Assembly (NCBI RefSeq): GCF_004005945.1
Contig: NZ_SACS01000015.1
Span: forward strand, 62,001 to 126,000
Direction of reading: 5' to 3'
Source of the DNA: Rheinheimera riviphila
GTDB taxonomy: Bacteria; Pseudomonadota; Gammaproteobacteria; Enterobacterales; Alteromonadaceae
Length of the DNA: 64,000 nucleotides
Shown piece after piece: positions 4,601 through 22,496 of this stretch; position 1 is the stretch's first letter, and every line of letters begins with the position of its first letter. The notes under the pieces are model-generated. The model had not been told where the DNA came from. It worked only from the letters and a program-made list of their open reading frames with translations, and ran no database searches. The position numbers were made by a program, and so were the translations under genes.

Positions 4601-7600
4601 ACGATACTGTCGATAAGCTGGTATTTGGCGAAGGAATTACTGCCGCCAATATCAATTTACAACGCTCTGGTAATCACCTCGTCGTGCTGGTCGCTCATCC
4701 GCAAACCGGTGAAGTCTCTACCATCACTATCGAAGATGCAGTATCAAATGCCTTACGCCGATTAGAGCAGATGGTGTTTGCCGATGGCACTGTGATTGAA
4801 GGCGATTGGTTTAGCGAGCTTAGTTACTCAACTCACGGTACCGAAGGTAATGACACCATCACCGGAGATGAAAAGTCAGATGTGATCTACGGCCTGGCGG
4901 GGAACGATATCATCGAAGGCGGTTTCGGTAACAATACGATGGATGGTGGCGAAGGTGATGACATCTTAAGGATTGCTTCGGTAGCGAACAACACCAGAGA
5001 CTTCAGTAATACCTTTATCGGCGGCACCGGCAATGATCGGATGGAAGGTGCTTCCGGCGCCGATACCTATGTCTACAACCTCGGCGATGGCAATGATGTC
5101 ATTGCAGATAAAGCTGGGGGCACCAACAAAGCCGATACCCTGTCCTTTGGTGCAGGCATTACTGCCGCCAATATCAGTCTACAGCGCAATGGTAACCACC
5201 TTGTCGTGTTGGTCGCTCATCCGCAAACCGGCGAAGTCTCTACCATTACTATCGAAGATGCCGTGACAAATTCCTTGCGCCGAATAGAGCAAATGGTGTT
5301 CGCTGATGGCTCTGTGATTGAGGGGGACTGGTTTAGCCAGCTTAGTTACGCAACTTACGGTACCGAAGGTAATGACACCATCACCGGAGATGAAAAATCT
5401 GATGTGATCTACGGCTTGGCCGGTAACGATGTGATTGATGGCGGTTTTGGTAACAATACCCTCAACGGTGGTGAAGGGAACGACACCTTAAAGATTGCTC
5501 CCACAGCGAATAACACGAAAGACTTCCGCAATACCTTTATCGGTGGCAGCGGTAATGACCGGATGGAAGGTGCTCACGGCGCCGATACCTATGTCTACAA
5601 CCTCGGCGATGGTAATGATGTCATTGTCGATAATTCGAGTTACAACACTGTCGATAGACTTGTGTTTGGTGAGGGTATTACCGCCGCCAATATCAGTTTA
5701 CAGCGTAATGGTAACCACCTTGTCGTGCTGGTAACTCATCCGCAAACCGGTGAAGTCTCTACCATCACTATCGAAGATGCCGTGACAATCGCATTACGCC
5801 GAATAGAGCAAATGGTGTTCGCTGATGGCTCTGTGATTGAAGGCGATTGGTTAGAGAAACTAGCTCTGACTGGCACCACTGGTGATGATAATATTGCTGG
5901 CACCAATGCCCATGAGACTATTTATGGCCTGGCAGGACACGATATCATTGATGGCGGTTTTGGCAATAATAAGCTTCATGGTGGCGAAGGCAATGACACC
6001 TTAAGAGTGGCTTCAACAGCAACTGCTGCCAAAGACTTTAGCAATACCTTTATCGGCGGCACCGGTAATGACCGTCTGGAAGGTGCTCACGGCGCCGATA
6101 CCTATCTCTATAACCTTGGCGATGGCAATGATGTCATTGTCGATAAATCGAGTTACACCACTGTCGATAAGCTAGTGTTTGGTGCGGGCATTACTGCTGC
6201 AAACATCAGCTTGCAGTGCTCTGGCAACAACCTCGTTGTGTTGGTTGCCCACCCGCAAACCGGAGAGGTCTCTACCATCACTATCGAAGATGCTGTAACA
6301 CATACCACACGACGTATTGAGCAAATGGTGTTTGCTGACGGCACTATGATTGAGGGCGATTGGTTAGAGAAGCTTGGACTGACTGGTACCTATGATAATG
6401 ACAATATTGTTGGCACCAACGCCTCAGAGACTATCTATGGTCTGGCCGGGAACGATGTGATTGATGGCGGTTTTGGCAACAATACCCTCAACGGTGGCGT
6501 AGGGAGCGACACCTTAAAGATTGCCTCCACAGCGACCAACTCGAAAGACTTCCGCAACACCTTTATCGGTGGTGCTGGCAACGATCGGCTCGAAGGCGCT
6601 CACAGCGCTGATACCTATATCTATAACCTCGGCGATGGTAATGATGTCATTGTCGATAAATCGAGTTACACCACTGTCGATAAACTGGTATTTGGTGTAG
6701 GTATTACCGCCGCCAATATTAGTTTACAGCGTAATGGTAACCACCTTGTCGTGCTGGTAACTCATCCGCAAACCGGTGAAGTCTCTACCATCACTATCGA
6801 AGATGCAATGACAAATACATTACGCCGACTTGAGCAGATGGTGTTCGCTGACGGCACTGTGATTGAAGGCGATTGGTTAGAGAAACTGGCACTAACTGGC
6901 ACCACTGGTGATGACAATATTACTGGCACTAACGCCTCCGAAACCATTTATGGCATGGCTGGCAACGATACTATCGACGGTGGTTTTGGCAACAACATCC
7001 TCAACGGTGGCGAGGGGGATGACACTTTAAAAATTGCTTCAACAGCGACCAACTCGAAAGACTTCCGCAATACCTTTATCGGTGGTACCGGTAATGACCG
7101 GATGGAAGGCGCTCACGGCGCCGATACCTATGTCTATAACCTCGGCGATGGCAATGATGTCATTGTCGATAAATCGAGTTACACCACTGTCGATAAACTG
7201 GTATTTGGTGCAGGCATTACTGCCGCCAATATCAGCTTGCAACGCGCTGGTAATCACCTCGTGGTGATGGTCGCCCACCCGCAAACCGGTGAGATCTCGA
7301 CTATTACTATCGAAGATGCGGCCACCAACACTTTACGTCGTATCGAACAGATGGTGTTTGCTGACGGCACTGTGATCAATGGTGACTGGCATAGTCAATT
7401 AAGTTCTACATCGATCGGCACTAACAATAATGATGTCATCACTGGCGGCGACAAAGCTGACTGGTTATTTGGCATGGAAGGTAACGACACCCTCAGCGGT
7501 GGTTTAGGCCACAACAGACTAGTCGGTGGTGCGGGCGATGACACCTTGAAAATCGTTTCAACACCAGAATTAGCCAAAGATTTCCATAATATTCTGATAG

Positions 7601-8103
7601 GTGGCATCGGCAACGACCGACTTGAAGGAAGTTTTGGTTTGGAAACTTACATGTTTAATCTGGGCGATGGTCAGGACACCATTCGTGATTTGGGAGGTAT
7701 CGATAAGCTTGTTTTTGGCTCTGGTATTACGCAGTCACATTTGCAATTGCAGCGAACTGCCGACAACCACCTTGTCATCAGGTTTTTGAACAACAGTGGC
7801 GAACTAACCGGAGATCAAATCACTATCGAAAATGCGTTTACAGACTCTGGTTATGCTATCGAAAGCTTAGAATTTGCAGATGGTAGCATTGCACCTATTG
7901 ATCTTTCACCGTTACCGGATGAACCCGGATCTGAACAATTCTGGAAAGATGCTACATCAGAAAAATATCTGATTGATATATATGGTGTTGATGCAAAAGT
8001 AGCAAACCTGATAGATGCGTTGAATGCTTTTGATACAGACACTGACACCGAAGTTGACGTTGCAATCAGTAGCAGATTAATGATTGAGGAATACGCTCTG
8101 TAA
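1675..8103 (+). CDS. Giant RTX calcium-binding exoprotein with a permuted papain-like N-terminus
   Basis: 2142 aa, probable type I secretion substrate (no Sec signal; HlyD gene upstream). Residues 1-125 carry a His (YHVW, H22) and an NC motif (SNCATVVSDILKAGG, C109) in the order seen in permuted NlpC/P60 and papain-like thiol hydrolases. About residues 225-300 hold the DPLVLDLDGDGVE...FDHNGDG...GKELFGD module common in large RTX proteins, with EF-hand-like Asp loops. A middle region of about 400 residues is unassigned. From about residue 710 to 2075, eight tandem units of 171-174 aa each carry RTX nonapeptide-like GGxGNDxL strings and the conserved blocks ADTYVYNLGDGNDVI and EQMVFADG. The last 65 residues are acidic and should contain the uncleaved export signal. 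Likely a cell-surface or released protein; adhesin versus enzyme cannot be decided. Confidence 0.92.
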   Translation: MSDYKAVIHVDSGSHENKAGYHVWIVLFDANGRKHQYSYGPAENPFNGPGAFRDLPEAEGRSDYKINIDITKDMFDSMKSKADALKASPPPYFLVDAPNLAHSILGSNCATVVSDILKAGGINKFENYFTPTQYQAHIESIQAMKSVFDKFTSLSDNLSGYVGDILDRINDLSGFFDNIDSSILDGLLNLSNGLRKIQSFFGANPTGYLPNDINSLFNMIDRAVNAPRDPLVLDLDGDGVETVGTNAGIMFDHNGDGLKHGTGWVKPDDGLLVVDWNENGVIDSGKELFGDNTIVDVSYNGVERKAKDGFEALKAFDGNDANGQPWKGDGVIDAKDKIFSRLKVWQDLNQDGVTQQGELKTLAELGISSINLDNKNKGTTQHGNRVDSVSSFQFSDGREHEMSSLFFAADTFRNSFNDKIPLTERTEKLPDFAGSGGLRSLREAATLDDNLASLLETFSKATTRSEQLALVDDILWQWHLGSELETFHDKMAKIAYRSYFDPYNTVSMFPLGKEYLTGRYSVIEAFNGRPIENIVYSEYRGGGGGAGSVARSNTSYFFFPSMGAHSNFPFQVRAQNAERSIESTYQEIFNQVFSSLSFKTRLADIIDSVELNFDEAGISLNFEHLEGKLTAEISKNKLDGLADLFDIVKYYKEFVQDGSWDFISFCNTLTSSGLVDDESIWESKLGSYIQKATEESTDINGISSDWEVLLGDSRNNIINGDNGDELIIAGRGNDVIEGHFGNNTMDGGVGDDILKISSRTNNTRDFSNTFIGGTGNDRMEGALGADTYVYNLGDGNDVILDKSSHDTVDKLVFGEGITGANITLQRSGNHLVVLITHPQTGEVSTITIEDAVTNNLRRLEQMVFADGTVIDGDWLEKFNLVGTKESDEILGTNASETIYGLAGNDIIEGEFGNNTLIGGEGNDTLKIASLATNTRAFSNTFIGGTGNDRMEGALGADTYLYNLGDGNDVILDKSSHDTVDKLVFGEGITAANINLQRSGNHLVVLVAHPQTGEVSTITIEDAVSNALRRLEQMVFADGTVIEGDWFSELSYSTHGTEGNDTITGDEKSDVIYGLAGNDIIEGGFGNNTMDGGEGDDILRIASVANNTRDFSNTFIGGTGNDRMEGASGADTYVYNLGDGNDVIADKAGGTNKADTLSFGAGITAANISLQRNGNHLVVLVAHPQTGEVSTITIEDAVTNSLRRIEQMVFADGSVIEGDWFSQLSYATYGTEGNDTITGDEKSDVIYGLAGNDVIDGGFGNNTLNGGEGNDTLKIAPTANNTKDFRNTFIGGSGNDRMEGAHGADTYVYNLGDGNDVIVDNSSYNTVDRLVFGEGITAANISLQRNGNHLVVLVTHPQTGEVSTITIEDAVTIALRRIEQMVFADGSVIEGDWLEKLALTGTTGDDNIAGTNAHETIYGLAGHDIIDGGFGNNKLHGGEGNDTLRVASTATAAKDFSNTFIGGTGNDRLEGAHGADTYLYNLGDGNDVIVDKSSYTTVDKLVFGAGITAANISLQCSGNNLVVLVAHPQTGEVSTITIEDAVTHTTRRIEQMVFADGTMIEGDWLEKLGLTGTYDNDNIVGTNASETIYGLAGNDVIDGGFGNNTLNGGVGSDTLKIASTATNSKDFRNTFIGGAGNDRLEGAHSADTYIYNLGDGNDVIVDKSSYTTVDKLVFGVGITAANISLQRNGNHLVVLVTHPQTGEVSTITIEDAMTNTLRRLEQMVFADGTVIEGDWLEKLALTGTTGDDNITGTNASETIYGMAGNDTIDGGFGNNILNGGEGDDTLKIASTATNSKDFRNTFIGGTGNDRMEGAHGADTYVYNLGDGNDVIVDKSSYTTVDKLVFGAGITAANISLQRAGNHLVVMVAHPQTGEISTITIEDAATNTLRRIEQMVFADGTVINGDWHSQLSSTSIGTNNNDVITGGDKADWLFGMEGNDTLSGGLGHNRLVGGAGDDTLKIVSTPELAKDFHNILIGGIGNDRLEGSFGLETYMFNLGDGQDTIRDLGGIDKLVFGSGITQSHLQLQRTADNHLVIRFLNNSGELTGDQITIENAFTDSGYAIESLEFADGSIAPIDLSPLPDEPGSEQFWKDATSEKYLIDIYGVDAKVANLIDALNAFDTDTDTEVDVAISSRLMIEEYAL
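3808..7900 (+). repeat. Eight tandem ~513-522-bp coding repeats of the RTX protein
   Basis: The anchor FGNN codons start at 3892, 4405, 4924, 5446, 5959, 6472 and 6985, with a diverged GLGHN copy at 7501. Spacings are therefore 513, 519, 522, 513, 513, 513 and 516-519 bp. Seven copies are very similar at DNA level (for example the block for HPQTGEVSTITIEDA) and the eighth is clearly diverged. All spacings are multiples of three, so recombination between units would keep the frame and change the length of the protein. Confidence 0.9.
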
Positions 8104-8136: not shown

Positions 8137-8172
8137 GGCCAGTCAGGTCCACACTGACTGGCCTTTTCTTTG
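8137..8172 (+). terminator. Rho-independent terminator after the RTX gene
   Basis: GGCCAGTCAG (8137-8146), a 7-nt loop, and CTGACTGGCC (8154-8163) form a perfect 10-bp stem followed by TTTTCTTT. It lies 34 bp after the RTX stop and faces the end of the convergent GH20 gene. The other strand also has a short T-rich tail, so it may serve both directions. Confidence 0.88.
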
Positions 8173-8202: not shown

Positions 8203-10770
8203 TTAGCTATTTCCCTTCCATAGATAAATTCCAGCTTCACGGCACTCCAACATCTGTTGCACCGGTTGCGCCAGCGCCAGTAGCTCTTCGTCGACTTCGT
8301 TGATGATGATTTGCAGTTGTTGGCGCTGCAAATCCCAGGTTTTTCTGACCTTGTTGCCAGTCGTTGGCTGCTGAGTTAGCCGTTGTTGCTCCGCCAGCCA
8401 TTGCAGCGCGATATCGCTGGTAATAGCGAGCTGAGCCGTGAGGTGCTTTATTCGGGCTTGTTGCTTGCCCTGATAGTTTTTTAACTGCGCCGCAGCTTGT
8501 TGCCAGCGCTGAAATTGTTGCTGCAAGGCGTGGATGCTGCTGGCGCGCTGTGCTGCGGTTTGCGGTGCCCTGTCGGACGAGGTGCCGATTGCTGCACAAC
8601 CGTTTGTCGCCAGCTGCTTCTGTAGCACCACCAGCGCTAGACTTTCCGCTGGTAATGCGTCGGCGAACCGAGCGAGCTCAGCGTCCAAATGATACTGACC
8701 ACGCACGGTTTTCAGATGATGGCGACTGTAATATTGGCTTTGTTCGACAGTTTCACTCAGCACCAACAAAGCGGCGGCTTCTGCTTCATTACTGGCCAAA
8801 GTAGCTAAACCCTGGCGTTGCTGTTGTTGATGTAATAAACCAATGCGGCTGCCGTAGTCGTCCATTTGCTGCAACCGTTGATACATTGAGCTTTCATCAC
8901 GCATATCAGCAGGCGACCATAGCCGCTCGGCAAAGGCATATAACCGTGGCCACAGTTTTAAGTCCAACAGCGTTGCCGGGACTAATTCGGCCCAAAGCGC
9001 GGCTTCTCCGCCTAAAATCAGCTGTTGTTGGGATGCTGCAGTCAAGGTAGGAAGTACGGGCAAGGCCAGTTGCTGTTTGCTATTGCTCGCTAACTTTACC
9101 GTCAACGGATAGCGTGTATTGCCCAGCATTGCACTGGCATGCCAGCTGCCGTCAGTTCTTCCCTGCAGCTGAATTTCCGCCGGCCCTAACCAACTGTCGA
9201 TGGCAAATACCCAGTCACTGCTGCCATCGGCTTTGCTGCGTTGTTGCACCCAGCGTGGTGCCAGTTCACCCCGCGCAGGTACCCGCATCCGCAGTTGTGG
9301 CTGTTGCAGGTTCTGTGAGACAGCTGTCGGCAGCAAGATAAACTGGCCGCTCACCGGCTTGTTATTAAAACGCGCCAGCTGAAAATCCAGCACTATTTGC
9401 TTGCCGTCAGCCGGTAGCGGGGGCAAAGGCTGCGCCACGCCAACCGGATCGTTGCGATAGTGATAGGAAGTTGGCATCGGCTGATCTAAATAATAGCCAG
9501 CCGATAAAATCGTCGGGTGACCAGCGCGGACACTTTCGGCCACCGCATTTTGCCCTTGCCATGACTGCACCAGCACATTTTTTGGTAAATCTTTGTGCAG
9601 CACTTCGTCCCAGCCAATCATGGTGCGATTAAGCTGTTTCAGTTGTAGCGCCAAGCGTCGGTTAAAATCGGCATGTAATTCCCCGGCATCAGCCAGTTGT
9701 TGCTGTTGCATAAACTGTTGAATGGCCGGGTTTTGTAGCCACTGCTCCGGTTTAACTTCGTCGCCACCAATATGCAGATAAGGATCGGGGAAAATCGCTG
9801 CGACTTCTTTTAATAATGCCGCAGCAAAAGCGGTTACTTCGGGCGAGCTGACATCCAGCACTGGTGCAAACACGCCAAAACGTCGTTCCGCTTTGGTCGC
9901 TGAACCCGGCTCAGCCAATAACTGCGGATAAGCGCGGCCGATGGCGCTGGCGTGGCCGGGTAAATCAATTTCCGGCACCACGCGAATGCCCAACTTGGCG
10001 GCGTAGCTGACCAGCTCGCGCATTTGTGCTTGCGTATAAAACTCGCCGCCCGCGAATTGCGTCAGTTTCGAGTAACTTAAGCTTTCAAAGCGCCAGCCCT
10101 GATCATCAGTTAAATGCCAGTGCAACACATTGAGTTTGGCTGAAGCCATGCCCTGCAGCTGGCGTTTTAAATCGGCCAGCGGTACAAAACGGCGCGCACT
10201 GTCGATGAGAAGACCACGCCATGGAAACCTGGGTTGGTCTTCGATAGTGACAGTTGGCCACTGACAGTGCGGCGTAGGCGAAGAAGTTGCTGGCAGCGAC
10301 GGGCAATCCAGTAGCTGAGTTAAGGTCTCCAACCCATATAAAGCGCCGGTACTGGTATTGGCTTGTAAGTGAATGTGCTGTGGCGTGATTTGTAACTGGT
10401 AACTTTCATCATCGCCCGGTTTGGGGATTGTGAGCAGTTTGCCAATCTCAAGCCGCAAAGTTGGCTTTACCGCCGTAGTCACCGATTGCAGCAATACCGG
10501 CCGACCGGCCTGGGCGGTTAAGCGTTGCTGCAGATGTTGGATTAAATATTTGCCATCGGTGGCTGTGTTTTGGGTCGCGTCCGCCAGCACCAGTTCAACG
10601 TCAAGACGCAGTTCTGTTTGATCACCCACCAGCAACAAAGCCCCGGTTTGACGCTCCAGTTTAAGCGGATAAGGCATTAACGGTAGATCGTCCGCAGCAA
10701 ACAGTGGCTGCGCAGCAAGCAAACATCCCCCCAGCAATCCAAACCTGAACAAGCAGCGCCGCAACATCAT
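8203..10770 (-). CDS. GH20 beta-N-acetylhexosaminidase, exported
   Basis: 855 aa. Exo-acting enzyme that removes terminal GlcNAc/GalNAc by substrate-assisted catalysis. A signal peptide (RRCLFRFGLLGGCLLAAQPLFA) points to the periplasm. The N-terminal GH20b-like domain (to about residue 175) precedes the barrel, which starts FPWRGLLIDSARRF; LHWHLTDDQGWR and the catalytic Asp-Glu pair in HIGGDEV (about residues 332-338) are intact. GGEAALWAE and FAERLWSP close the barrel. An extra domain of about 130 residues sits between YYLDQPMP and GGEAALWAE. It is the last gene of a six-gene minus-strand operon and overlaps the symporter stop by 4 bp. In this context it would release the terminal N-acetylated sugar or sugar acid from imported chitooligosaccharides. 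Confidence 0.93.
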   Translation of the reverse strand: MMLRRCLFRFGLLGGCLLAAQPLFAADDLPLMPYPLKLERQTGALLLVGDQTELRLDVELVLADATQNTATDGKYLIQHLQQRLTAQAGRPVLLQSVTTAVKPTLRLEIGKLLTIPKPGDDESYQLQITPQHIHLQANTSTGALYGLETLTQLLDCPSLPATSSPTPHCQWPTVTIEDQPRFPWRGLLIDSARRFVPLADLKRQLQGMASAKLNVLHWHLTDDQGWRFESLSYSKLTQFAGGEFYTQAQMRELVSYAAKLGIRVVPEIDLPGHASAIGRAYPQLLAEPGSATKAERRFGVFAPVLDVSSPEVTAFAAALLKEVAAIFPDPYLHIGGDEVKPEQWLQNPAIQQFMQQQQLADAGELHADFNRRLALQLKQLNRTMIGWDEVLHKDLPKNVLVQSWQGQNAVAESVRAGHPTILSAGYYLDQPMPTSYHYRNDPVGVAQPLPPLPADGKQIVLDFQLARFNNKPVSGQFILLPTAVSQNLQQPQLRMRVPARGELAPRWVQQRSKADGSSDWVFAIDSWLGPAEIQLQGRTDGSWHASAMLGNTRYPLTVKLASNSKQQLALPVLPTLTAASQQQLILGGEAALWAELVPATLLDLKLWPRLYAFAERLWSPADMRDESSMYQRLQQMDDYGSRIGLLHQQQQRQGLATLASNEAEAAALLVLSETVEQSQYYSRHHLKTVRGQYHLDAELARFADALPAESLALVVLQKQLATNGCAAIGTSSDRAPQTAAQRASSIHALQQQFQRWQQAAAQLKNYQGKQQARIKHLTAQLAITSDIALQWLAEQQRLTQQPTTGNKVRKTWDLQRQQLQIIINEVDEELLALAQPVQQMLECREAGIYLWKGNS

Positions 10771-12305
10771 GAAAGCTCCGCCTTTAAAGCATTGTCACTG
10801 GAGGTAGTTGCAACAGCTGAAACTTCAGTTGAATGCTCCATTTGCGCCCGCTGCGCGGTCAACACCGCCAAAGCTTCTGCACGGCTAAGCCGGTTTTGCG
10901 GCGTCAACAACGTCACCAGCACCGCCGCCAAAGCGCTAATCGCAACAGCGGGCAACACCGGATTACCCCAATAAGCTAACCAGTCCGGTTGCAGCAAAAT
11001 CACAGCCGACACCAAAGGCGCCACAAGCAATGCCGCCAGCGCGCCATACCGGTTAAACCGTTGCCAACCACGACCCAGCAGCGCCAGCACACACATGCCG
11101 GAGAGCAACATCGCAATCATGCTGGTGATATAACTGATGATATTGTCGGCGAGTAGCGCAAACAGCAACGCCAAACCGACCACGCCAACCAAGCCAAAAC
11201 GCGACCAACGCACCACTTTTTCCGCGTGCGGCGTACGCCGGAACAGTAGCGCATAAATATCCCGCAGTAAAACCGATACCGCCGCGATCGCATCGGAACT
11301 GGCGCTCGACATGGTGGCGGAAATTCCCGCGAGCAGCACCAACACACCAAGGCCAACCGGTAATAGTTCCAGCGCCAGATAAGGAAAGGCATACGAAGGG
11401 TTTTCTAAAGTCGGGATCAGTAACCAGGCGACAGCGCCAAGCAGCGCCGGGATCAGCGAGAAACCTAAATACAACACACCAGACCAGACAAAAGAGCGGC
11501 GCACCGTCGACACGTTTAAGCCGGAATAAATCCGCTGCCGGAACGATGGCGTTGCCAGCACGCCGACCAAAATAGCCACCGCCAGCGATATTGACGGCAG
11601 GAGTTTTGGCGTGGCAATTTGATGCTCGCGCATCGACTGCTGCAACACATCCCAGCCACCTACCGCGTGCAGCGCAAATAACGCCATCAGGATAAAACCG
11701 GCAAATAAAATCAGCGCCTGAATCGCATCCGTCCAAACCACAGCGGTGTAACCGCCAATCACCACATAAATGGCAAAGCCAAAAGCAATCAACAACTTGG
11801 CTGAACTTTGGTCAATACCGGTCAGCCAGGCCAGATACATGCTACCGCCGAGAATATGGGCGCCGAGCCAGCCAATACAGGCGACAAAAATAATCAGCGC
11901 CACCAGGTTTTTCACCAGCGCATCAGCACCAACGTAATAACTCAGTTCTTCTGACATGGTCATAAAACGCAATTGCCGTAGCGGCGCGTATAACCAGGCC
12001 AGCAGCAAAATTCCCAAGGCTCCGCCAACACCATACAAAGTGCCGGCCCAGCCGTGGTGATAGGCATAACCGACCGCCCCCATTGACGAGCCGGTGCCGA
12101 CCATAGTGGCGACCGTGGTGCCAAGGGTTAACCAAAACGGTAAACTGCGCCCGCCGAGCAAAAAGTCTTCACCGGCTTGTGCCGCGCTACTTTTACCCTC
12201 TAATAGATTAGATGCTTGTTGCCGCTTCGCCGCCCACCAGCCGATTGCGATCATGAGCACTAAGTACAGCAAAAATCCGACTAAAAACACCGCCTGATCG
12301 GTCAT
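10767..12305 (-). CDS. Sodium:solute symporter (SSS family)
   Basis: About 512 aa with 12-14 predicted membrane helices. The SSS pattern is clear: an N-terminal helix (FLVGFLLYLVLMIAIGWW), the linker EDFLLGGRSLPFWLTLGTTVATMVGTGS, and the long central block with GGYTAVVWTDAIQALILF. Inner-membrane Na+-driven uptake; the substrate is not readable from sequence. The ATG at 12305 (MTDQAVF) is preferred because GGGGA lies 6 nt upstream. The frame extends to another ATG at 12341 without a good ribosome site. Located between RidA and GH20, it would import the product of the periplasmic hexosaminidase. Confidence 0.9.
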   Translation of the reverse strand: MTDQAVFLVGFLLYLVLMIAIGWWAAKRQQASNLLEGKSSAAQAGEDFLLGGRSLPFWLTLGTTVATMVGTGSSMGAVGYAYHHGWAGTLYGVGGALGILLLAWLYAPLRQLRFMTMSEELSYYVGADALVKNLVALIIFVACIGWLGAHILGGSMYLAWLTGIDQSSAKLLIAFGFAIYVVIGGYTAVVWTDAIQALILFAGFILMALFALHAVGGWDVLQQSMREHQIATPKLLPSISLAVAILVGVLATPSFRQRIYSGLNVSTVRRSFVWSGVLYLGFSLIPALLGAVAWLLIPTLENPSYAFPYLALELLPVGLGVLVLLAGISATMSSASSDAIAAVSVLLRDIYALLFRRTPHAEKVVRWSRFGLVGVVGLALLFALLADNIISYITSMIAMLLSGMCVLALLGRGWQRFNRYGALAALLVAPLVSAVILLQPDWLAYWGNPVLPAVAISALAAVLVTLLTPQNRLSRAEALAVLTAQRAQMEHSTEVSAVATTSSDNALKAELS

Positions 12306-12383
12306 TTTTTTCCCCATGTTGCTTGCTGCAGTCTGCGACATTGGCCGACTGCTTTTTTATAAAATTCGATTCAGAATCCGGAC

Positions 12384-12767
12384 CTAGGGTTGTTTATAAC
12401 AAGTCACATCCACTTCCACTTTACAATCCACCACCAAGTCAGCCACCGCACAAATCCGCGCAGGTGGATGGGCGGCAAAAAATTCGCGGAACACTTTATT
12501 AAAAGAGCTGAAATAGCGGGCATCGGTCAGCACCACGGTGACATGCACCACATGCTCCAGGCCATAACCAGCTTCCTGCATGATTTGAATACAGTTTTCG
12601 ATGGCAATGCGCGACTGCTCAACAATGCCACCTTCCACCACTTCACCATCACGCATCGGCGTTTGCCCCGACACATACAAAAAACCGCCCGCTTGTACTG
12701 CGCGCGAAAACGGCAAATGTTGCCCGCCGGTCCCTACACCACCTTCGGCGCCAAATCTTTTAATCAT
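12384..12767 (-). CDS. ridA: RidA-family enamine/imine deaminase
   Basis: 127 aa, the usual family length. RidA proteins hydrolyse reactive enamine/imine intermediates such as 2-aminoacrylate, which PLP-dependent dehydratases release. The fold signature (FSRAVQAGGFLYVSGQTP, IQIMQEAGYGLEHVVHVTVVL) and the active-site Arg in PPARICAVADLV are present. A strong AGGAGG lies 6 nt upstream of the ATG. Its presence in the same operon as a PLP dehydratase/deaminase (15274-16650) fits the known partnership. It may be a specialised paralogue rather than the cell's general RidA. Confidence 0.92.
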   Translation of the reverse strand: MIKRFGAEGGVGTGGQHLPFSRAVQAGGFLYVSGQTPMRDGEVVEGGIVEQSRIAIENCIQIMQEAGYGLEHVVHVTVVLTDARYFSSFNKVFREFFAAHPPARICAVADLVVDCKVEVDVTCYKQP

Positions 12768-12821
12768 TTGATCCTCCTGTTTGAACAGCTGCGCGCTTCA
12801 GCACTATCGTCAGTGCTTTCG

Positions 12822-14333
12822 TCAGCTCTGGGGCTGATGCGCTAAAAACCGGCCATGCCGATCAGGGCAGGCCACTCCTTGGTCAAAGGCCAAACCGCCG
12901 TTGACGTACACTTGCACAATGCCGTCAGCTTGCGCAAAAGGCTGCACAAAATCGGCGTTATCTTTGACTTTTTCGGCATCAAACAGTACCAAATCGGCGA
13001 AGTTGCCGACTTTAATACTCCCGCGCTGCGCCAGCTTAAAATTCTGTGCCGACAAACCGGTCATCTTGTGGATGGCCTGACTGAGGCTAAACAGTTGTAA
13101 GTCGCGGCTGTAATGGCCGAGCACCCGCGGAAAAGCGCCCCATAGCCTTGGGTGTGGATGCGGGTCGCAAGGCAATCCGTCCGAGCCAATCATCGTCGGC
13201 GGATAACTTAAAAATTGCTGCACATCGGTTTCCGACATGCCGTGATACACAGCGCCAGCCGGCATTAACCGCGCGGCAGTTTCCAGTAACGGCAACTGCC
13301 AGTGCTCGGAAATTTGCGCCAACGTTTGGCCGGCAAGCTCGGGATAAGGCTCAGACCAGGTGATAAAAATCTCAAAATCGGCAGTGACCTGTTTTAAATC
13401 TAAGGTGCTGGAACTGGCGGAATAGGGGTAACAATCACAGCAAAAATGCTGCTGAGCTGCCCGCTTGCCAATAAATTCCAGAACTTCCCCGGCGCGGCCC
13501 CAATTCGCCATACCTGCGCATTTTAAATGCGAAATCACCACTGGCACTTTGAGGTGTAAGCCTAAATCTGCCGCTTCGGCCAATGCCGGAATAATAGCCT
13601 CAAATTCACTGCGTAAATGGCTGGTGTAAATTGCGTCGAATTCGCCAAGCGGTGCGCCAACAGCGGCGAGTTCTGCAGCGGGAGCCGCAATCGCATTGTG
13701 ATAAGCCAGGCCGGAACTTAAGCCTAAAGCGCCTTGCTGCAATGCCTCACGCAGTAGCTGCTGCATTTGCTGTTGCTCTGGCACAGTAGCGGCTTTGGCT
13801 AAATCGGTCATCACCGCATGGCGCAACGTCGTGTGGCCAACCAGCGCTGCAGTGTTGACGCCCGGCTTGGCTTGCTGCAGCGCCGCGGCGTATTCGGCAA
13901 AACTGCGGTAGGCAAATTCGGCCTGCTGACCTAATAAATTCATTGGATCCGGCGGTGGCGCATCAAGATCGGCCGGTGCCGCGCTGATGCCACAATTGCC
14001 GGTGATCACGGTTGTCACGCCCTGGCTAAGCTTGGCCAGCATCGCCGGATTGCGGATGAGCTCCAGATCGTCGTGGGTATGCACATCAATAAAACCGGGC
14101 GCCAGCACTAAACCCTGGGCGGCAATTTCGATGCGGCCACTGCCGGGTGTCAGGGTGCCAATGGCGGCAATCCGATCCGCCAGCAGTGCCACATCGGCGA
14201 CAACAGCGGCAGCGCCGGTGCCATCAATCACGCTGGCGCCGAAGAAAATCCGGTCATACAGCAGATGGCCCGTTTCAGGCTCAAGTTCAGCCTGCTGCTG
14301 CGTCCTTGCAACGATCGTTGCCGCGGGTAACAA
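12822..14333 (-). CDS. N-acyl-D-amino-acid deacylase-like amidohydrolase
   Basis: About 503 aa. D-aminoacylase family zinc hydrolase that removes an acyl group from N-acyl-D-amino acids. Metal and active-site motifs: GFIDVHTHDDLELI (HxH), TVITGNCGISAAP, YTSHLRSE, VVISHLKCAG and the late IGSDGLPCDPHPHPRLWG. The C-terminal beta-strand domain GSIKVGNFADLVLFD is typical. The only start codon just after the RpiR stop is TTG at 14333; the conserved part begins near LLYDRIFFGASVIDGTG, so the true start may be slightly downstream. It sits 2 bp after the regulator gene. Given the GH20 partner, the natural substrate may be N-acetyl-D-glucosaminate, itself an N-acetylated D-amino acid; this is inference. 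Confidence 0.9.
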   Translation of the reverse strand: MLPAATIVARTQQQAELEPETGHLLYDRIFFGASVIDGTGAAAVVADVALLADRIAAIGTLTPGSGRIEIAAQGLVLAPGFIDVHTHDDLELIRNPAMLAKLSQGVTTVITGNCGISAAPADLDAPPPDPMNLLGQQAEFAYRSFAEYAAALQQAKPGVNTAALVGHTTLRHAVMTDLAKAATVPEQQQMQQLLREALQQGALGLSSGLAYHNAIAAPAAELAAVGAPLGEFDAIYTSHLRSEFEAIIPALAEAADLGLHLKVPVVISHLKCAGMANWGRAGEVLEFIGKRAAQQHFCCDCYPYSASSSTLDLKQVTADFEIFITWSEPYPELAGQTLAQISEHWQLPLLETAARLMPAGAVYHGMSETDVQQFLSYPPTMIGSDGLPCDPHPHPRLWGAFPRVLGHYSRDLQLFSLSQAIHKMTGLSAQNFKLAQRGSIKVGNFADLVLFDAEKVKDNADFVQPFAQADGIVQVYVNGGLAFDQGVACPDRHGRFLAHQPQS

Positions 14334-14335
14334 GC

Positions 14336-15187
14336 CTAATCCCCCAACGGCAGACGTTCCGGGCCGTGCCGGTGTTCATCCAGTTCGTGTTTGATCCGGC
14401 GTAGTTTTTCCCGTGATTTACGCTGATTCAGCACGGCAATCTGGCTGACCAGAATGTCGATGGCCGCCAGCATCACATATCGGGACGCGCTGGGTTTATA
14501 GATAAAATCCGATTCCTGGGTCAGGATCGGCAGATGAATATCGGCCAATTTCGACAAGCGGCTGTCCGGGCAAATCGCAATCACTTTGCTGCCATAGTCT
14601 TTGGCAATTTGCACTGCAGCTTCCACTTCCGGGCTGTAACCGCTGAGCGACAAACACAACACCACATCACCTTTGTCGACGCTGGCCGCAGTCATCCGCA
14701 TCAGCAGTGGGTCAGAATAGGCATTGCTTTGCACACAAAGCCGGAACAACCGGTGATGACATTCCTGCGCCATAATCGAGCTGCCACCGCCGACGCCATA
14801 AATCAGCACTTTCGGCGCCTGGATCATCAAGTCGCTGGCTTGGTCGATCATCTCCTGGCTGATGAGGCCGGTATTGAGCTGCAAAATTTCATTAATGGCG
14901 GCATAAATCGCCGGAATATCTTTTTTCTCGACCGTTGAGTCGCTGATAAACCGCTCACCCACCGCTACCGACTGCGCCAGTTTCAGCTTCAGATCCCGTA
15001 CATTGCTGCACTGCAGCGCCCGCGCTAAGCGGGTAATACTGGCATGACTGACTTCTGCCTTGTCGGCCAGCTCGCCAATACTGGCGCTGGCGGCGTAGTT
15101 CAGATCACTTAAAATCAACCGCGCTACTTTTTGCTCGGATGGCCGCAAATGGGCCAGACATTCATGAATTCGCGAAACTATATCCAC
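14336..15187 (-). CDS. MurR/RpiR-family transcriptional regulator (HTH + SIS)
   Basis: 283 aa. N-terminal RpiR helix-turn-helix (LRPSEQKVARLIL ... SIGELADKAEVSHASITRLARAL) and C-terminal SIS sugar-isomerase-like domain (PKVLIYGVGGGSSIMAQE, GDVVLCLSLSGYSPEV), which binds phosphorylated sugars or sugar acids in this family. It is the second gene of the operon and precedes the deacylase by 2 bp, so it is probably the local repressor or activator. A nested palindrome at 16699-16730 upstream of the first operon gene is a candidate binding site. Effector unknown; an amino-sugar-acid derivative is plausible. Confidence 0.92.
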   Translation of the reverse strand: MDIVSRIHECLAHLRPSEQKVARLILSDLNYAASASIGELADKAEVSHASITRLARALQCSNVRDLKLKLAQSVAVGERFISDSTVEKKDIPAIYAAINEILQLNTGLISQEMIDQASDLMIQAPKVLIYGVGGGSSIMAQECHHRLFRLCVQSNAYSDPLLMRMTAASVDKGDVVLCLSLSGYSPEVEAAVQIAKDYGSKVIAICPDSRLSKLADIHLPILTQESDFIYKPSASRYVMLAAIDILVSQIAVLNQRKSREKLRRIKHELDEHRHGPERLPLGD

Positions 15188-15273
15188 CTGAGGTTTCCTT
15201 TAAGCTTTGGCCGCTGCGCGCACTTTGCTAAAACAACGCAACAGCAGCGACCTGGGTTACACCCGAAATTTTT

Positions 15274-16650
15274 CTAAAAAAACGTTTCATACCAACGCCG
15301 GACCTGATAATCCTCATCCAGCACCGCGACATACCGCCACTTATCGAGGGTCAGACAAGGGTGCGAACCGGCAAAACTCAGCATATCGCCGACCGCTAGA
15401 TCGCAGTCGGGCGGAAGCTGTAACAGCGCATGCTGATCCATGATTTTACTAATGTGCATTCGGGCATCGGCCGCTTTGGGCTGGCGTTGTGTTGGCTGAA
15501 TGCGTGCGGACTGATTTTTTGCAGGCTCAGCATCTGGCCGAAAGTGCTGGCTGACCTTGGGCAACCCAGCGTCAAACGCCATATCGCGTTTACCGAAGCC
15601 AATAATCGCCAGCTGTGGTTCTGGCCGGGACAACACATAAGCCCAAACTTCCAGCGCATTGTGCAGCTCCCCGTTCACCTGACAAGCCAAAGCACTGCGC
15701 TTTAACAGGTCCTGCTGCGCTTGCTGATAAATACCCAGATCAAAAAACAGATAACAGCCGGGGCGAATAAGCTTCATAAAATTGTCGGGCAATGCCGCTG
15801 CTTGAAACGCTTCGCTGACGAGGTCATAAAACGCTGAACCAGCACCACTAAGTAAAATTTGTGGTGTGGCGAATAACTGTTGTTGCTGCAATTCAAGGCT
15901 AAAACCAATGCAACTTTGTATAAACTGACGGATTGCGGCGCTTTGATCCGGCGCTTTAATCACCCCTTCGTAAAACTCCACCCCAGCCAGCAGCAGCGCT
16001 TTGCTGTGTTTTACCTGCTGCGCCAGCTCCAGCGCGGCATCGAAACTACGCACGCCACTACGCCCGCCAGCAACACCTATTTCCAGTAACACCTTTAAAG
16101 TTAAACCTTGGCTGCTGAAAAAGTTGTCGAGCTGCGTCAGGTTTTCCGGTGAATCGAGCAGACAATAAAATTCGATGCCCTGTTGCTGCATCGTGGCAAC
16201 CTGCTGCATTTCAGCACGGCCAACCAGTTGATTCGCGAGTAAAATTCGCTTTACACCATGCGCAGCAGCCACCAGCGCCTGTGGCACGGTCGCCAGCGTC
16301 ATGCCCCAGGCTCCAGCGGCGATTTGTTGTAAAAATAGCGCAGGCAACATGCCGGTTTTGCCATGCGGCGCCAGCTGCACCCCGGAAAGGTCGGCAAACT
16401 GCTGCATCCAGCGGATATTGTTGGTTAATTTCTGCTGATCCAATACCGCTATTGGCAACGTCAGTTCGCCCTGCAGTAAACTGCGTGCGGCACTGGTAAA
16501 TTCGCCAGTGCTGTTATTTGGCATTGCTGCAATAGCTGACGAGGGAGGCAATAGCAACTCATTCTGCCCAGCCAGGCCTTTGGTGATCCGCATCTTGTGA
16601 GAGTTCTCCGCCATCCGAAACCAGCATCGGGGTGTCTGAAAAATAATCAT
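15274..16650 (-). CDS. DSD1-type PLP amino acid deaminase (D-serine dehydratase / D-glucosaminate deaminase-like)
   Basis: 458 aa. Fold III alanine-racemase-like barrel plus a C-terminal DSD1 domain. The PLP lysine is in PHGKTGM (about residue 97), and LLSGAGSAFYDLV and a phosphate-loop region follow. The C-terminus has DMLSFAGSHPCLTLDKW, whose His and Cys bind Zn in eukaryotic D-serine dehydratase. It eliminates ammonia from a D-amino acid. First gene of the operon, 86 bp before the RpiR gene. The ATG at 16650 gives an unusual N-terminus; MAENS or MRITKG (about 16593) are possible later starts. With RidA, the deacylase and GH20 next to it, D-glucosaminate is a candidate substrate alongside D-Ser/D-Thr. 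Confidence 0.86.
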   Translation of the reverse strand: MIIFQTPRCWFRMAENSHKMRITKGLAGQNELLLPPSSAIAAMPNNSTGEFTSAARSLLQGELTLPIAVLDQQKLTNNIRWMQQFADLSGVQLAPHGKTGMLPALFLQQIAAGAWGMTLATVPQALVAAAHGVKRILLANQLVGRAEMQQVATMQQQGIEFYCLLDSPENLTQLDNFFSSQGLTLKVLLEIGVAGGRSGVRSFDAALELAQQVKHSKALLLAGVEFYEGVIKAPDQSAAIRQFIQSCIGFSLELQQQQLFATPQILLSGAGSAFYDLVSEAFQAAALPDNFMKLIRPGCYLFFDLGIYQQAQQDLLKRSALACQVNGELHNALEVWAYVLSRPEPQLAIIGFGKRDMAFDAGLPKVSQHFRPDAEPAKNQSARIQPTQRQPKAADARMHISKIMDQHALLQLPPDCDLAVGDMLSFAGSHPCLTLDKWRYVAVLDEDYQVRRWYETFF

Positions 16651-16659
16651 TGAACTTCA

Positions 16660-16730
16660 CTAAAATATCGTGTTAAAAGATAACAGGCAAGCAAATTAAT
16701 TAAAGTTACTTAGTAACAGGCGACTTTAAT
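16660..16730 (-). promoter_or_regulatory. Candidate promoter and operator of the GH20/deacylase operon
   Basis: A perfect palindrome GTTACTTAGTAAC (16705-16717) is nested with ATTAAAGT (16699-16706) and ACTTTAAT (16723-16730). On the minus strand TTGCCT, 17 bp and TATTTT lie just downstream of it. This arrangement just before the first operon gene suits control by the RpiR regulator encoded in the operon. No experimental support. Confidence 0.4.
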
Positions 16731-16893: not shown

Positions 16894-17709
16894 ATGCTCA
16901 CTCAATTCTTCCACGTTAGTCTATTGCTGCTGGCAAGCCACGCCAGTTTTACTGCCACTGCCGATATCAACCAAGCTTTGCTACATGAAGTTCGAACGGC
17001 AGAGAATAAAGTACGAGATGATGCACGCAAACCTTTACAAACACTCAGTTTTTTTGAAGTGACGCCGCAAAGTACCGTGGTTGAAGTGTGGCCGGGCTCG
17101 GGTTGGTATACCGAAATTTTGGCTCCGTTATTGGCGGACAAAGGCAAACTGTACGCCGCACATTTCTCCGATAAATTCACCTTGCTGCCGGCCGACTATA
17201 TGCAAAAAGGCCGCACTGACTACCAGACAAAACTGGCGTCGCACCCGATCTACAAAAATGTCACTGTGACTGAATTTGCGCCGCTGGCAGGTTTCGCAAT
17301 CGCGCCAGCGGGCAGTGCTGATGTGGTGTTATCGATCCGCAACCAGTTATATATGTTTGATGGCGAAACTTCCTTAAAACACGCCTTGGCCAACTTTTAT
17401 CAGGCACTGAAACCGGGTGGTGTATTAGGCGTCGTCGCCCCGCGCTTGCCTGATCACATGCTGGCAAGTGATTGGAAAAAAACCGGTTACGTGCCACAAC
17501 AGTTATGGTTAAAACTGGCGAAAGACGCGGGTTTTACATTTGAAGCCAGCAATGATCTGCTAATCAATCCAAAAGATACGGCCGATCATCCATCAGGGAT
17601 TTGGTCGTTACCGCCGACTTTAGCCGGTGATGAAAAAGATAAAGCCAAGTACCGGGCCATGGGTGAAGCCACCCAAATGATGTTGAAATTCCGAAAACCG
17701 CGCATGTAG
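16894..17709 (+). CDS. Exported class I SAM-dependent methyltransferase-like protein (COG4798 type)
   Basis: 271 aa. An N-terminal signal peptide (MLTQFFHVSLLLLASHASF) precedes a Rossmann methyltransferase domain. Motif I is VVEVWPGSGWYTEIL and a later motif is ALKPGGVLGVVAPRLP. Predicted methyltransferases of this type carry signal peptides although SAM is not expected in the periplasm, so the biochemical role is unclear. The ATG follows AAAGGATC with good spacing (a stop-free extension on another frame upstream is not used). It is divergent from the DSD1-led operon and stands alone. Confidence 0.82.
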   Translation: MLTQFFHVSLLLLASHASFTATADINQALLHEVRTAENKVRDDARKPLQTLSFFEVTPQSTVVEVWPGSGWYTEILAPLLADKGKLYAAHFSDKFTLLPADYMQKGRTDYQTKLASHPIYKNVTVTEFAPLAGFAIAPAGSADVVLSIRNQLYMFDGETSLKHALANFYQALKPGGVLGVVAPRLPDHMLASDWKKTGYVPQQLWLKLAKDAGFTFEASNDLLINPKDTADHPSGIWSLPPTLAGDEKDKAKYRAMGEATQMMLKFRKPRM

Positions 17710-18975: not shown

Positions 18976-20961
18976 CTACTTTGTGTTGCTTGGTAATAAA
19001 TCCAGCACTACCTGCCAGGGCACATATTTCAGATTCTGACCTTGCTCCGGCATCCGGTTTCGACCGTCCTGCACGATCAGCGCCCCATGTTCAAAACCCG
19101 GGCCTAAGGTTCGCACCGTTAAATCCAGACCATCGGTTTCGGAGCTGCCGTCAATACCAAGCTGTGGATTGGTGGTGACGCGAAACTTCAGTAGTTGCCG
19201 GTACGGCGCCACGCCCTGATAGAGCACGTAACTGTCGTCACCCTGACTGGACGCCAGTAAATACGGCGTTTTTCCTGGCGCAAAAGCTAAACCTTCCACG
19301 TCATCGACTAGCTCCACGCCATCAACCAGAATAATTTGCTCGCCGATCACAGCCGCATCGGTGGCAGCGTCAAAGCGCCAGATACCGGTATCTTCTTCTC
19401 CGACATAAAGCTGTTGGCGCTGGTCATCGGCGACACAACCTTCCGGCTGACCTTTGACTTGCAGGCTGCGCACTTTTTTCCCGCTCCAGCTTTGGCCGTC
19501 GCTGTGCAGCTGATATTGCTCCACCAGCCCGGATTTATCGTTCACAAATACATAAATTTGCGCTGCGGTTGGCTGAAACATGCATAGCCCATAAATCTCC
19601 TGCATCGCTGTCGGAATTTGCCCGGCGACTTTAACGCTGCCGTCATCCGCAATCGCAAACAGCTGCAAGCTATTGTTATTGCGAAGGCTTGCCACAGCGA
19701 CATCGTGTGGTTTGCCTTGAAAGTGCAAGCCATAGCGCAAGTCGACATTATTCAACCGCCCAACCGCCAGCTGTTGCAGCCGTTTGCCGGCCATGTCATA
19801 TACTTCCAGGCCATTTCTTTTGTCGGTGGCGAGGATACGGCTAAGTTGCGGTTGGGTGGGATGGTGCCAAATCGCCGGGTCGTCAATGACATCGCCGCGC
19901 TGTGAAGCGGCATGACTTTCGGCAGTGGGTTGGACTTGTTTCACAGGCTTGGCTGGTTTGATTGCTGCTGGAATTGCCATCACAGCAGGCAATGTCCACT
20001 GCTGCACTGGCACCGCATCTTCGGTCGTGACAAAAACCTGCGCTGCTGCAACACCAGTCACAACGGACATCGCCGCCACAGCATCGTCACCAAGCGACCA
20101 GCTTTGCACGGATGTATTGGTGGTGGCCTGCTTGCTGTCTGCAACTATCCGCAACAACCGCGCCGGCTGTTCTTCCAGCGCCAATACGCTGCTATCCGGC
20201 AATACCGAAAGTGCAACTATCTCAGATTGAATATCCCCAAACGGCTGTTTAACCTGCACTAATTCGCGGCCTTCATCAGCTTCGGGTTCGGCCTGATAAC
20301 GCCAGATGGCATTGGGTTCACTGACATACAAAGCAGCGGAATTGGCATCTACAGCACAGGCTTTGCTGTCATAAGGCACGGCTAATTCGCGGATCACCAC
20401 AGGTGATGGCCGCCACTTGCCCGCTTGTTGTAATAACAGCTGATCAGCGCCACCACGGCCACCAAGTAAAAACAACGACAATTGCTGATTTACCGCACTT
20501 TGGTAGAAACACAAATCTTCCACCACCCGGCTATTAATCACCTGTTGCAACTGCGGCTGCAGTTGGCCGTTGTGCCAGAGCCACAGATGCAGGCTTTGCG
20601 TATCCGCTTCCATCGCCGCCAGCAGCAAACTGCCATCAGCAAGGAGCTGACTGGTGAGTCGGACAAAGTTACCGGAAGCGCTCGCCAGTGGTTGTTGATT
20701 GGTTGCGCCAGCAGCTGCCAGCACTTTCAGACCTTGCTGATCCAACACAAATTGCAAGCTTTGTCCGGCCACTTCAGCCGACAAATAATGATGGGCAGAA
20801 GTTCGCAACAAAGTTTGTACCGGTACAATCGCCGCGGTATTTTTAGTTGTTTCTTTCGCGGTATCAGCCTGCACCACAGCGGCGCTGATGGCCGAAGAAT
20901 GCTGCGTACCACAACCCAATAACAGACTGGTGATGGCGGCAGTGAACATGAGTTTTTTCAT
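18976..20961 (-). CDS. Beta-propeller phytase (3-phytase), lipoprotein
   Basis: About 661 aa from the ATG at 20961; the frame extends to 21015 but the lipoprotein signal MKKLMFTAAITSLLLGC (lipobox LLGC) fixes the start. The C-terminal half is a beta-propeller phytase: DDPAIWHHP, ILATDKRNGLEVYDMAGK, VGRLNNVDLRYG, GLCMF, PEGCVADDQ, LYVGEEDTGIWR and DVEGLAFAP are the family's Ca2+- and phosphate-binding blocks. The N-terminal half is a degenerate second propeller-like domain, as in dual-domain phytases. It releases phosphate from phytate, probably anchored at the outer membrane or in the periplasm. Third gene of the TonB receptor-phosphatase-phytase operon. Confidence 0.93.
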   Translation of the reverse strand: MKKLMFTAAITSLLLGCGTQHSSAISAAVVQADTAKETTKNTAAIVPVQTLLRTSAHHYLSAEVAGQSLQFVLDQQGLKVLAAAGATNQQPLASASGNFVRLTSQLLADGSLLLAAMEADTQSLHLWLWHNGQLQPQLQQVINSRVVEDLCFYQSAVNQQLSLFLLGGRGGADQLLLQQAGKWRPSPVVIRELAVPYDSKACAVDANSAALYVSEPNAIWRYQAEPEADEGRELVQVKQPFGDIQSEIVALSVLPDSSVLALEEQPARLLRIVADSKQATTNTSVQSWSLGDDAVAAMSVVTGVAAAQVFVTTEDAVPVQQWTLPAVMAIPAAIKPAKPVKQVQPTAESHAASQRGDVIDDPAIWHHPTQPQLSRILATDKRNGLEVYDMAGKRLQQLAVGRLNNVDLRYGLHFQGKPHDVAVASLRNNNSLQLFAIADDGSVKVAGQIPTAMQEIYGLCMFQPTAAQIYVFVNDKSGLVEQYQLHSDGQSWSGKKVRSLQVKGQPEGCVADDQRQQLYVGEEDTGIWRFDAATDAAVIGEQIILVDGVELVDDVEGLAFAPGKTPYLLASSQGDDSYVLYQGVAPYRQLLKFRVTTNPQLGIDGSSETDGLDLTVRTLGPGFEHGALIVQDGRNRMPEQGQNLKYVPWQVVLDLLPSNTK

Positions 20962-21014
20962 TTCTTTTATTCCAAATTCGTAATGAACGGGCTGATTTTC
21001 AGCCGCTAACCACA

Positions 21015-22496
21015 TCAGCGGTTGGCCTTTGACGCCAAACCAAAATCATCGCCTTCCCAACATTTTTTATTGGCAAGCGTCGTCCTGTCCGGATTACCAC
21101 AACGTCGCTGCGGTAACAGTTTGCTTGGCGCAGTTTCCAGCAGGCGTTTGCTGCCATCGGGCTGGCGCTGCAGTTCAAAACTGTCATACAGTTTGCCGCT
21201 GACGGTCAGCGACTGATATCGCAGCACATCGTGGTCAAAATCCAGCAACTGAAACAACTGCGTATCTTCTGCCACTTTTTGCATGGCACGACGCGCCGGA
21301 TCGGCCACCAGATACATTTTTGGCCCCGCCACCGACACCAAATAAACAGTGCCGGCATGCGCCTGACTGACGCCGCTGGCAAAATTCCGGCCATATACAT
21401 GGTCGTGCCCTTGCAGCGCTAAATCGACACCGTATTTTTCGAATAACGGCTGCCAATATTGCCGTAGTCGCGGATTATCGCGGCCTTGCGACACCGAAAA
21501 CATCGGATGGTGGTAACTGACCACAGTCCAGCGCTGCGGATTTTTCGAAAGCACTTGCTCCAGCCACTCTGCCTGCAGTTTCGCCATCGCTTCGTTTTCC
21601 AAAGCTTCGGTCGAGTTGAGCGCAATAAAACGCACGCCTTGGTAATCGGTAAAGTACACGGTGTCACGTAGCGGCTGCGGGCCATTTTGCACCACCCCAA
21701 ACTGGGCGCTAAACTGCGGCGAGAGCACCCGGCGTTCCTGCGGCGTGTCTTCATTGAGCTTCAGATATTCATGGTTACCGGCCACAATCAACTGATTCAC
21801 CATCCCTGCTTGCCAGCCCGCCGCATCAAACCATTCGCCCCACTCGTTATCGAGCACACCGTAACGCGAGTTGACCAAATCACCGGCATGGATCATCAGT
21901 TGCGCATCAGGTGCTTTGAGCAAAGCAGCGCGGGCCACACGGGAAAAATGTGACTTCAACGAGTTTTGCGCATCACCAAAATAAATGGCGCGAAAAGGTG
22001 CGAATTCCGCCTTGGCGGTGCGAAACTGCAGCCATTCACTCCAGGTGCCGAGCCCCTGCACCCGATAGGCATAAAGCGTATCTGGCTGCAGATCAGGAAA
22101 AGTCAGCTGATGGTGCGCGCTTGGACCATTGTCAGTCTGAATTTGCCGGCTCTGGGCGCTAACGCGTTTTGCCGCAAGATGCAAAGCCGGGCCATCAGCG
22201 GCTGGCGCAATTTCGGCGACCAGCGGCGACGGCGACAGCCGAGTCCGCCAGTTCACGGTTTGCGATAACGCCGGTGTTGCGGTGGGGATCAGAATAATCC
22301 GATCCGGAAATACCGTTGCTTGATAGCGGCTAACACCTGCCGGCACCAGCGTATTGCCCTGCGGATCAGCTTCCTTTGCCGCCATTGCTGCGCCGCGTTC
22401 TACACTCTCTACACTCGCTGCACTCGCCAGACCTACCAGACTCACCAAACTCAGCAGCAATATCGGTGTTTTCAAGCCCATAAATGTTCGCATCAC
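21015..22496 (-). CDS. Purple acid phosphatase-like metallophosphoesterase, exported
   Basis: 493 aa with signal peptide (TPILLLSLVSLVGLASA). An N-terminal fibronectin-III-like purple acid phosphatase domain (TLYAYRVQGLGTWSEWLQFRTA) precedes the calcineurin-like catalytic domain with the metal-binding series YFGDAQ, HAGDLVNSRYG, VAGNHEY, SYHHPMFS and GHDHVYGR. It should hydrolyse phosphomonoesters outside the cytoplasm. It lies 6 bp after the TonB receptor and about 53 bp before the phytase start, in one minus-strand operon. Together the two enzymes could strip phosphates from phytate and its partial products. Confidence 0.9.
   Translation of the reverse strand: MMRTFMGLKTPILLLSLVSLVGLASAASVESVERGAAMAAKEADPQGNTLVPAGVSRYQATVFPDRIILIPTATPALSQTVNWRTRLSPSPLVAEIAPAADGPALHLAAKRVSAQSRQIQTDNGPSAHHQLTFPDLQPDTLYAYRVQGLGTWSEWLQFRTAKAEFAPFRAIYFGDAQNSLKSHFSRVARAALLKAPDAQLMIHAGDLVNSRYGVLDNEWGEWFDAAGWQAGMVNQLIVAGNHEYLKLNEDTPQERRVLSPQFSAQFGVVQNGPQPLRDTVYFTDYQGVRFIALNSTEALENEAMAKLQAEWLEQVLSKNPQRWTVVSYHHPMFSVSQGRDNPRLRQYWQPLFEKYGVDLALQGHDHVYGRNFASGVSQAHAGTVYLVSVAGPKMYLVADPARRAMQKVAEDTQLFQLLDFDHDVLRYQSLTVSGKLYDSFELQRQPDGSKRLLETAPSKLLPQRRCGNPDRTTLANKKCWEGDDFGLASKANR

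Follow-up and report, generated by a model that had tools for sequence, protein, structure and literature searches.

A predicted ong operon for the use of C1-oxidised chitin in Rheinheimera riviphila, with an empty kinase slot and a candidate tandem operator

Introduction

Does the six-gene operon at positions 8203-16650 of the window, a 64,000-nucleotide stretch of Rheinheimera riviphila DNA, degrade N-acetyl-D-amino acids, or does it serve the use of C1-oxidised chitin by way of N-acetylglucosaminic acid (GlcNAc1A), as an earlier note made from the letters alone had proposed? We put the probability of the second answer, an ong operon for C1-oxidised chitin, at about 0.92. The window is C21:62001-126000 in our numbering of genomes (G), contigs (C) and loci (L), and belongs to genome G000, an assembly of 4.75 Mb in 114 contigs that is listed as 100% complete.

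In Pseudoalteromonas prydzensis ACAM 620 the use of C1-oxidised chitin depends on the eight-gene ong cluster, which encodes a TonB receptor, an SSS symporter, an RpiR repressor, a GH20 enzyme, the sugar kinase KdgK, a RidA protein, a deacetylase and a deaminase (PMC9537276; this paper, PMC12017989 and PMC11653859 are each drawn on in part). The genes are transcribed as ongOT-1, ongCRBD and ongIT-kdgK-ongA, OngR represses the first two of these units, and growth on GlcNAc1A or GlcNAc-GlcNAc1A is abolished by each single deletion except those of ongOT-1 and ongR (PMC9537276). The same authors except ongOT-1 from the highly conserved ong genes and recognise an ong cluster by at least four co-occurring homologues with E < 1e-5 and >30% identity. 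For two Aeromonas strains examined for the pathway, the portion of PMC11653859 used here gives no close OngB or OngC. The word 'Rheinheimera' is absent from the main texts of PMC9537276 and PMC12017989.

Results and Discussion

Gene content and order

The stretch 8203-16650 is filled by six minus-strand open reading frames with intergenic gaps of -4 to 86 bp, and our coordinates and Pfam assignments agree with the tightly spaced families that the earlier note had named. The first gene, ongC (15274-16650), carries PF14031 (D-ser_dehydrat) and PF01168 (Ala_racemase_N); its product is predicted, from Pfam and gene order, to be a deaminase of the ong type, that is, a DSD1-type enzyme of pyridoxal phosphate fold-type III that would convert glucosaminic acid (GlcN1A) to 2-keto-3-deoxygluconate (KDG) and NH3. 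It is followed by ongR (14336-15187), encoding a MurR/RpiR-family (HexR-like) repressor with PF01418 (HTH_6) and PF01380 (SIS) that scores 164.6 bits against the NCBIfam HexR model, below its cut-off of 296, and by ongB (12822-14333), encoding a predicted GlcNAc1A deacetylase (Amidohydro_3, E 1.3e-35). Further on lie ongD (12384-12767), for a RidA-family protein of 127 residues (PF01042, Ribonuc_L-PSP, E 1.4e-24), ongIT (10767-12341), for an SSS-family symporter with predicted GlcNAc1A uptake (PF00474, SSF, E 2.8e-42), and ongA (8203-10770), for a GH20 hexosaminidase (PF00728, E 2.2e-90) with a HIGGDE catalytic motif and an N-terminus that looks signal-like by eye. The start of ongA and the stop of ongIT share four bases (ATGA). 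The starts of ongB (TTG) and ongC (first ATG) are uncertain, the G020 homologue matching the ongC frame from about residue 20.

The families of OngC, OngR, OngB, OngD, OngIT and OngA and the orders C-R-B-D and IT-A are those of the P. prydzensis cluster, with ongC at the position that it holds in the published ongCRBD operon and OngD 127 residues long in both. The two differ in that the window has no kdgK between ongIT and ongA and no receptor gene beside ongC. Vibrio-type ong clusters comprise the same enzyme families and carry kdgA (PMC9537276), whereas the window has neither kdgK nor kdgA.

The order C-R-B-D-IT-(K)-A on one strand is found in all eight fully assembled clusters of the window's family (f1, window included). 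The six-gene arrangement is no chance assembly, because the same order and strand recur in the seven others, save for the presence or absence of the kinase gene. With the window excluded from the count, an SSS homologue is present in 31 of the 36 OngB loci fetched. The GGDE motif stands in all 23 OngA homologues longer than 700 residues, and the PHGKT and SHPC motifs of the ongC product, which we take to be catalytic, stand in all 35 of its homologues.

The deacetylase

The closest match of OngB in the PDB is the P. prydzensis deacetylase PpOngB (9kb1, 591 bits, E 1.4e-176), with the variant entry 9kb3 next, and further matches are 9g5m, listed merely as an amidohydrolase family protein (568 bits), the Alcaligenes D-aminoacylase 1m7j (447 bits) and the Bordetella entry 3gip (372 bits). 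OngB and PpOngB are 58% identical over 471 residues in a HMMER alignment without gaps; their differences are ordinary divergence and extra N-terminal residues in the window protein that depend on the start codon chosen. All 20 PpOngB active-site positions that we checked from PMC12017989 are identical in the window protein: the zinc ligands, the catalytic residues, the contacts to the carboxylate and acetyl groups, the hydroxyl contacts Ser290, Ser292, Glu226 and Gln298, and three cavity residues. Over 38 OngB sequences 19 of these positions are invariant, and the remaining one, position 348, is G in 16, C in 18 and N in 4.

The D-aminoacylases 1m7j and 3gip are of the same amidohydrolase subtype, with a Cys/His/His metal site and a catalytic Asp (PMC12017989), and differ from OngB at the specificity positions 292 and 298 and in their lower scores. 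Judged by its residues, the window deacylase carries the GlcNAc1A-specific set of PpOngB and not that of the D-aminoacylases.

OngB is 91% identical to the OngB of Rheinheimera sp. SA_1. A single-protein scan of genome contigs gave two loci, one of them from Bacteroidetes and 36% identical.

Genes elsewhere in the genome and the proposed route

The earlier note had placed a lytic polysaccharide monooxygenase (LPMO), a KDG kinase and an aldolase for 2-keto-3-deoxy-6-phosphogluconate (KDPG) outside the window and had suggested a genome-wide search, in which all matches to these families lie on other contigs and none on C21. An AA10 LPMO with GbpA_2 and CBM_5_12_2 domains (G000:C19:141279-141857, E 8e-40) follows two GH18 genes in a set that resembles the published cdc cluster; in P. 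prydzensis as well, the LPMO belongs to a chitinase cluster apart from the ong genes. Besides ongA, the genome has two more GH20 genes, three in all; an OngA in the strict sense would fall in a clade distinct from other GH20 enzymes and cleave GlcNAc-GlcNAc1A. Among its five PfkB matches, the one closest to the kinases of ong clusters (28-36% identity) is at C31:54013, where it adjoins a KDPG aldolase, a glucuronate isomerase and a fructuronate-reductase-like gene, a hexuronate gene set. A second KDPG aldolase lies on C18 among neighbours that presumably form an Entner-Doudoroff set.

Two samples were searched, one of 60 relatives (22 members of the genus and 38 others) and one of 394 genomes across the order, L007 and L042, with contigs of equal length, being apparently one genome and counted once. 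Full-length OngB is present in 5 of the 22 genus members, 2 of the 38 other relatives and 35 of the 394 order-sample genomes. An AA10 LPMO is found in 106 of the 394, namely in 25 of the 35 genomes with OngB versus 81 of the 359 others (Fisher p 9e-9, not corrected for relatedness).

From these parts we infer a route in which a secreted AA10 LPMO, together with GH18 chitinases from other loci of the genome, would produce oligosaccharides ending in GlcNAc1A, from which periplasmic OngA would free GlcNAc1A. OngIT would carry it into the cell, where OngB would strip its acetyl group and OngC would deaminate the resulting GlcN1A to KDG. A KdgK would then phosphorylate KDG and a KDPG aldolase would cleave the product, both enzymes probably coming from the C31 hexuronate set, and OngR would repress the operon, probably through tandem palindromes at 16672-16717. 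OngD is essential in P. prydzensis, but the authors left its role open (PMC9537276), and the job that the earlier note gave to RidA, acting on the enamine, is therefore a guess.

Weighing the readings

Six of the eight ong gene families are present in matching order. Several observations weigh against an ong operon. The published identity criterion was compared for OngB alone, the one protein set against a P. prydzensis sequence. The characterised OngC of P. prydzensis deaminates D-Ser and D-Thr as well (PMC9537276). The C31 kinase reaches 320 bits against an NCBIfam KDG-kinase cut-off of 400. No OngOT-1-type TonB receptor stands beside the cluster; the nearest relative in this genome of the receptor next to ongC in G018 is an unassigned receptor at C19:10494 (56% identical), and relatives of the G018 receptor at 50-51% identity occur in G002 and G004, both without OngB. 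Within the genus sample, where an LPMO is present in 4 of 5 genomes with OngB and in 8 of 17 without it, the link between the two lacks significance (p 0.22), and a Pfam search found no AA10 LPMO in 10 of the 35 OngB genomes of the order sample (G003, G112, G143, G165, G171, G203, G214, G300, G350 and G381), of which G003 belongs to the same genus.

The last point lends some weight to an alternative in which the substrate is another N-acetylated aldonic or amino-sugar acid, or is GlcNAc1A that does not come from the cell's own LPMO, as strains without an LPMO may use substrate from others or from another oxidase. We consider this improbable, since the PpOngB residues that touch the hydroxyls at C3 to C6 of bound GlcNAc1A recur unchanged in the window protein and an LPMO-bearing chitinase cluster is present in the genome. 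Still less credible is the degradation of N-acetyl-D-amino acids by a D-aminoacylase and a D-serine dehydratase with the GH20 and SSS genes as incidental neighbours, which could appeal to OngB being the sister group of the D-aminoacylases (PMC12017989), to the generic or amino-acid-like Pfam and NCBIfam names of both enzymes, to the top PDB match of the deaminase (3gwq, labelled D-serine deaminase) and to the D-Ser and D-Thr activity of OngC, yet the window OngB has Ser292 and Gln298 where D-aminoacylases have Thr and Leu or Arg, scores 591 bits with PpOngB against 447 with the Alcaligenes enzyme and resembles a protein that, like two of its homologues, acts on GlcNAc1A only (PMC12017989), and SSS and GH20 genes follow ongD in all eight fully assembled family clusters.

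The preference of the earlier note for oxidised chitin over D-amino acids is thus borne out by gene families and order that match the ong cluster of PMC9537276 and by the GlcNAc1A residue set of OngB. The closest characterised homologue of the deacylase, PpOngB, is confined to GlcNAc1A, and the genome does have an LPMO and a KDG-kinase homologue; both facts run counter to the signs that the note had named as refuting its proposal, among them a closest homologue acting on D-serine or N-acyl-D-Glu only. For the deaminase, the D-serine label of 3gwq does not decide the matter. The pathway itself is already published, and what is added here is modest: a cluster without its kinase gene and a candidate site for the regulator. 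An ong operon here would carry the known range of the pathway beyond Pseudoalteromonas and Vibrio into Rheinheimera-like bacteria, and the candidate regulator site can be put to the test.

The kinase slot between ongIT and ongA

Gene order was compared on OngB stretches from 36 of the 37 other OngB genomes, G020 being left out with its gene on a 3-kb contig. A kinase homologue lies near ongB in 20 of the 36 loci and none was detected in 16; some of these stretches are short, some clusters are split, and a divergent kinase might escape detection. Within the family, a PfkB kinase gene stands between ongIT and ongA in G003, G018, G350, G165 and G275; in the window, G013, G203 and G214 the slot is empty and the two genes are at most 22 bp apart. 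Seven of the 17 kinase-less genomes (window included) were examined, and all seven have a kinase elsewhere (G000, G013, G046, G203, G214, G130 and G336). Among six kinase-bearing genomes examined, G003, G018 and G055 have a second kinase, and G350, G165 and G275 have no match besides the cluster copy at E <= 1e-20. A homologous kinase is common, occurring at E <= 1e-40 in 30 of the 60 relatives and in 18 of the 22 within the genus, and with so high a base rate the pattern is suggestive and no proof.

We believe that the missing kdgK of the window operon is probably replaced by a kinase elsewhere in the genome. With no kdgK in the operon itself, the pathway probably draws on the kinase and aldolase of the C31 hexuronate set. 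The pattern of kinase loss would then be a natural experiment consistent with KDG as an intermediate, and it suggests that the pathway is undercounted by searches that demand kdgK in the cluster.

The G046 cluster also lacks SSS and GH20 genes. At its locus L044, and at L089 (G090) and L104 (G071), all of another genus, a GH18-like gene, covered by a Pfam check at L044, follows ongC, ongR, ongB and ongD in place of these two genes.

A candidate OngR operator

At 16672-16717, 21 bp upstream of the first ATG of ongC, two GTTA-N5-TAAC palindromes of 13 bp each are separated by a 20-bp spacer. This exact tandem is the only one in the window, was absent from 60 simulated windows and occurs once in the whole genome when spacers of 18-22 are searched. 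Of the 22 genus genomes, the five that have OngB all carry it, at ongC or at a TonB-receptor gene, and the 17 that lack OngB do not. As the tandem is part of the ong locus, common descent would by itself produce this co-occurrence; more telling are that the tandem is unique, that its spacer is fixed at 20 bp and that it recurs at a second position. In G020 one tandem lies upstream of ongC and another separates ongB from a TonB-receptor gene. In G018 it occupies the interval from which ongC and a TonB receptor diverge, and in G003, where the start of ongC is uncertain, it overlaps the opening codons of the longest frame of that gene. Outside the genus, G350 and G165 have the tandem before ongC, and G275 has it before a TonB receptor that heads a receptor-C-R-B run. 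This placement fits the published repression of ongOT-1 and ongCRBD by OngR (PMC9537276).

Other results speak against an operator. Upstream of ongC at L098 (G203) there is no tandem within 3 mismatches, L113 (G214) has only a near match with 18-bp spacing, and a pattern search found no tandem in OngB-positive G046 and matched 3 of 34 OngB-negative genomes (G036, G047 and G050, all outside the genus, with spacers of 21-22). A tandem scan of 36 loci with at most one mismatch gave one near match outside the family (L092 in G228, 18-bp spacer, near an SSS gene), and a search of 18 of the 28 non-family clusters for perfect 6+6 palindromes ahead of ongC gave one, in one cluster. We restrict the operator claim to the window's family, within which it is not universal, because the non-family clusters gave one near match. 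A HexR-like TGTA/TACA palindrome was rejected as the OngR site, being absent from 36 regions upstream of ongC. The main text of PMC9537276, apart from its supplements, contains neither 'operator' nor 'binding site', and we found no RpiR-family operator palindrome tied to GlcNAc1A in literature that leaves out most subscription journals.

Taken together, we lean towards a view, with appreciable doubt, in which OngR acts through the tandem 13-bp palindromes and kdgK is a swappable ong part, dropped where another KDG kinase, for example one for hexuronate, feeds the same intermediate.

Receptors and neighbouring genes

The gene divergent from ongC (16894-17709) has a weak methyltransferase match only. 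A TonB-dependent receptor is encoded at 22503-25295 on the minus strand, about 6 kb from the cluster, and two genes on from it the minus-strand gene at 18976-21015 presumably encodes a beta-propeller phytase. Tracing an OngOT receptor through the operator gave no candidate, there being no second exact tandem in this genome, and the C19:10494 receptor was set aside as OngOT, the surrounding stretch having no tandem site even at 3 mismatches. Its region (L134, G000:C19:8000-16000, and G000:C19:18608) comprises this 56%-identical TonB receptor and, further on, a GH20 gene, and is possibly a chitooligosaccharide uptake locus; the gene after the receptor we take to encode a tryptophan halogenase.

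Between ongA and a convergent RTX gene, a consensus scan marks a hairpin with a T-rich tail (8137-8163) as a possible end of the operon; terminator-like sites number 23 in the region versus a shuffle mean of 13.9, and this hairpin is therefore weakly supported. The convergent gene (1675-8103, plus strand) encodes a 2142-residue protein with RTX-type calcium-binding repeats in 11 HemolysinCabind stretches.

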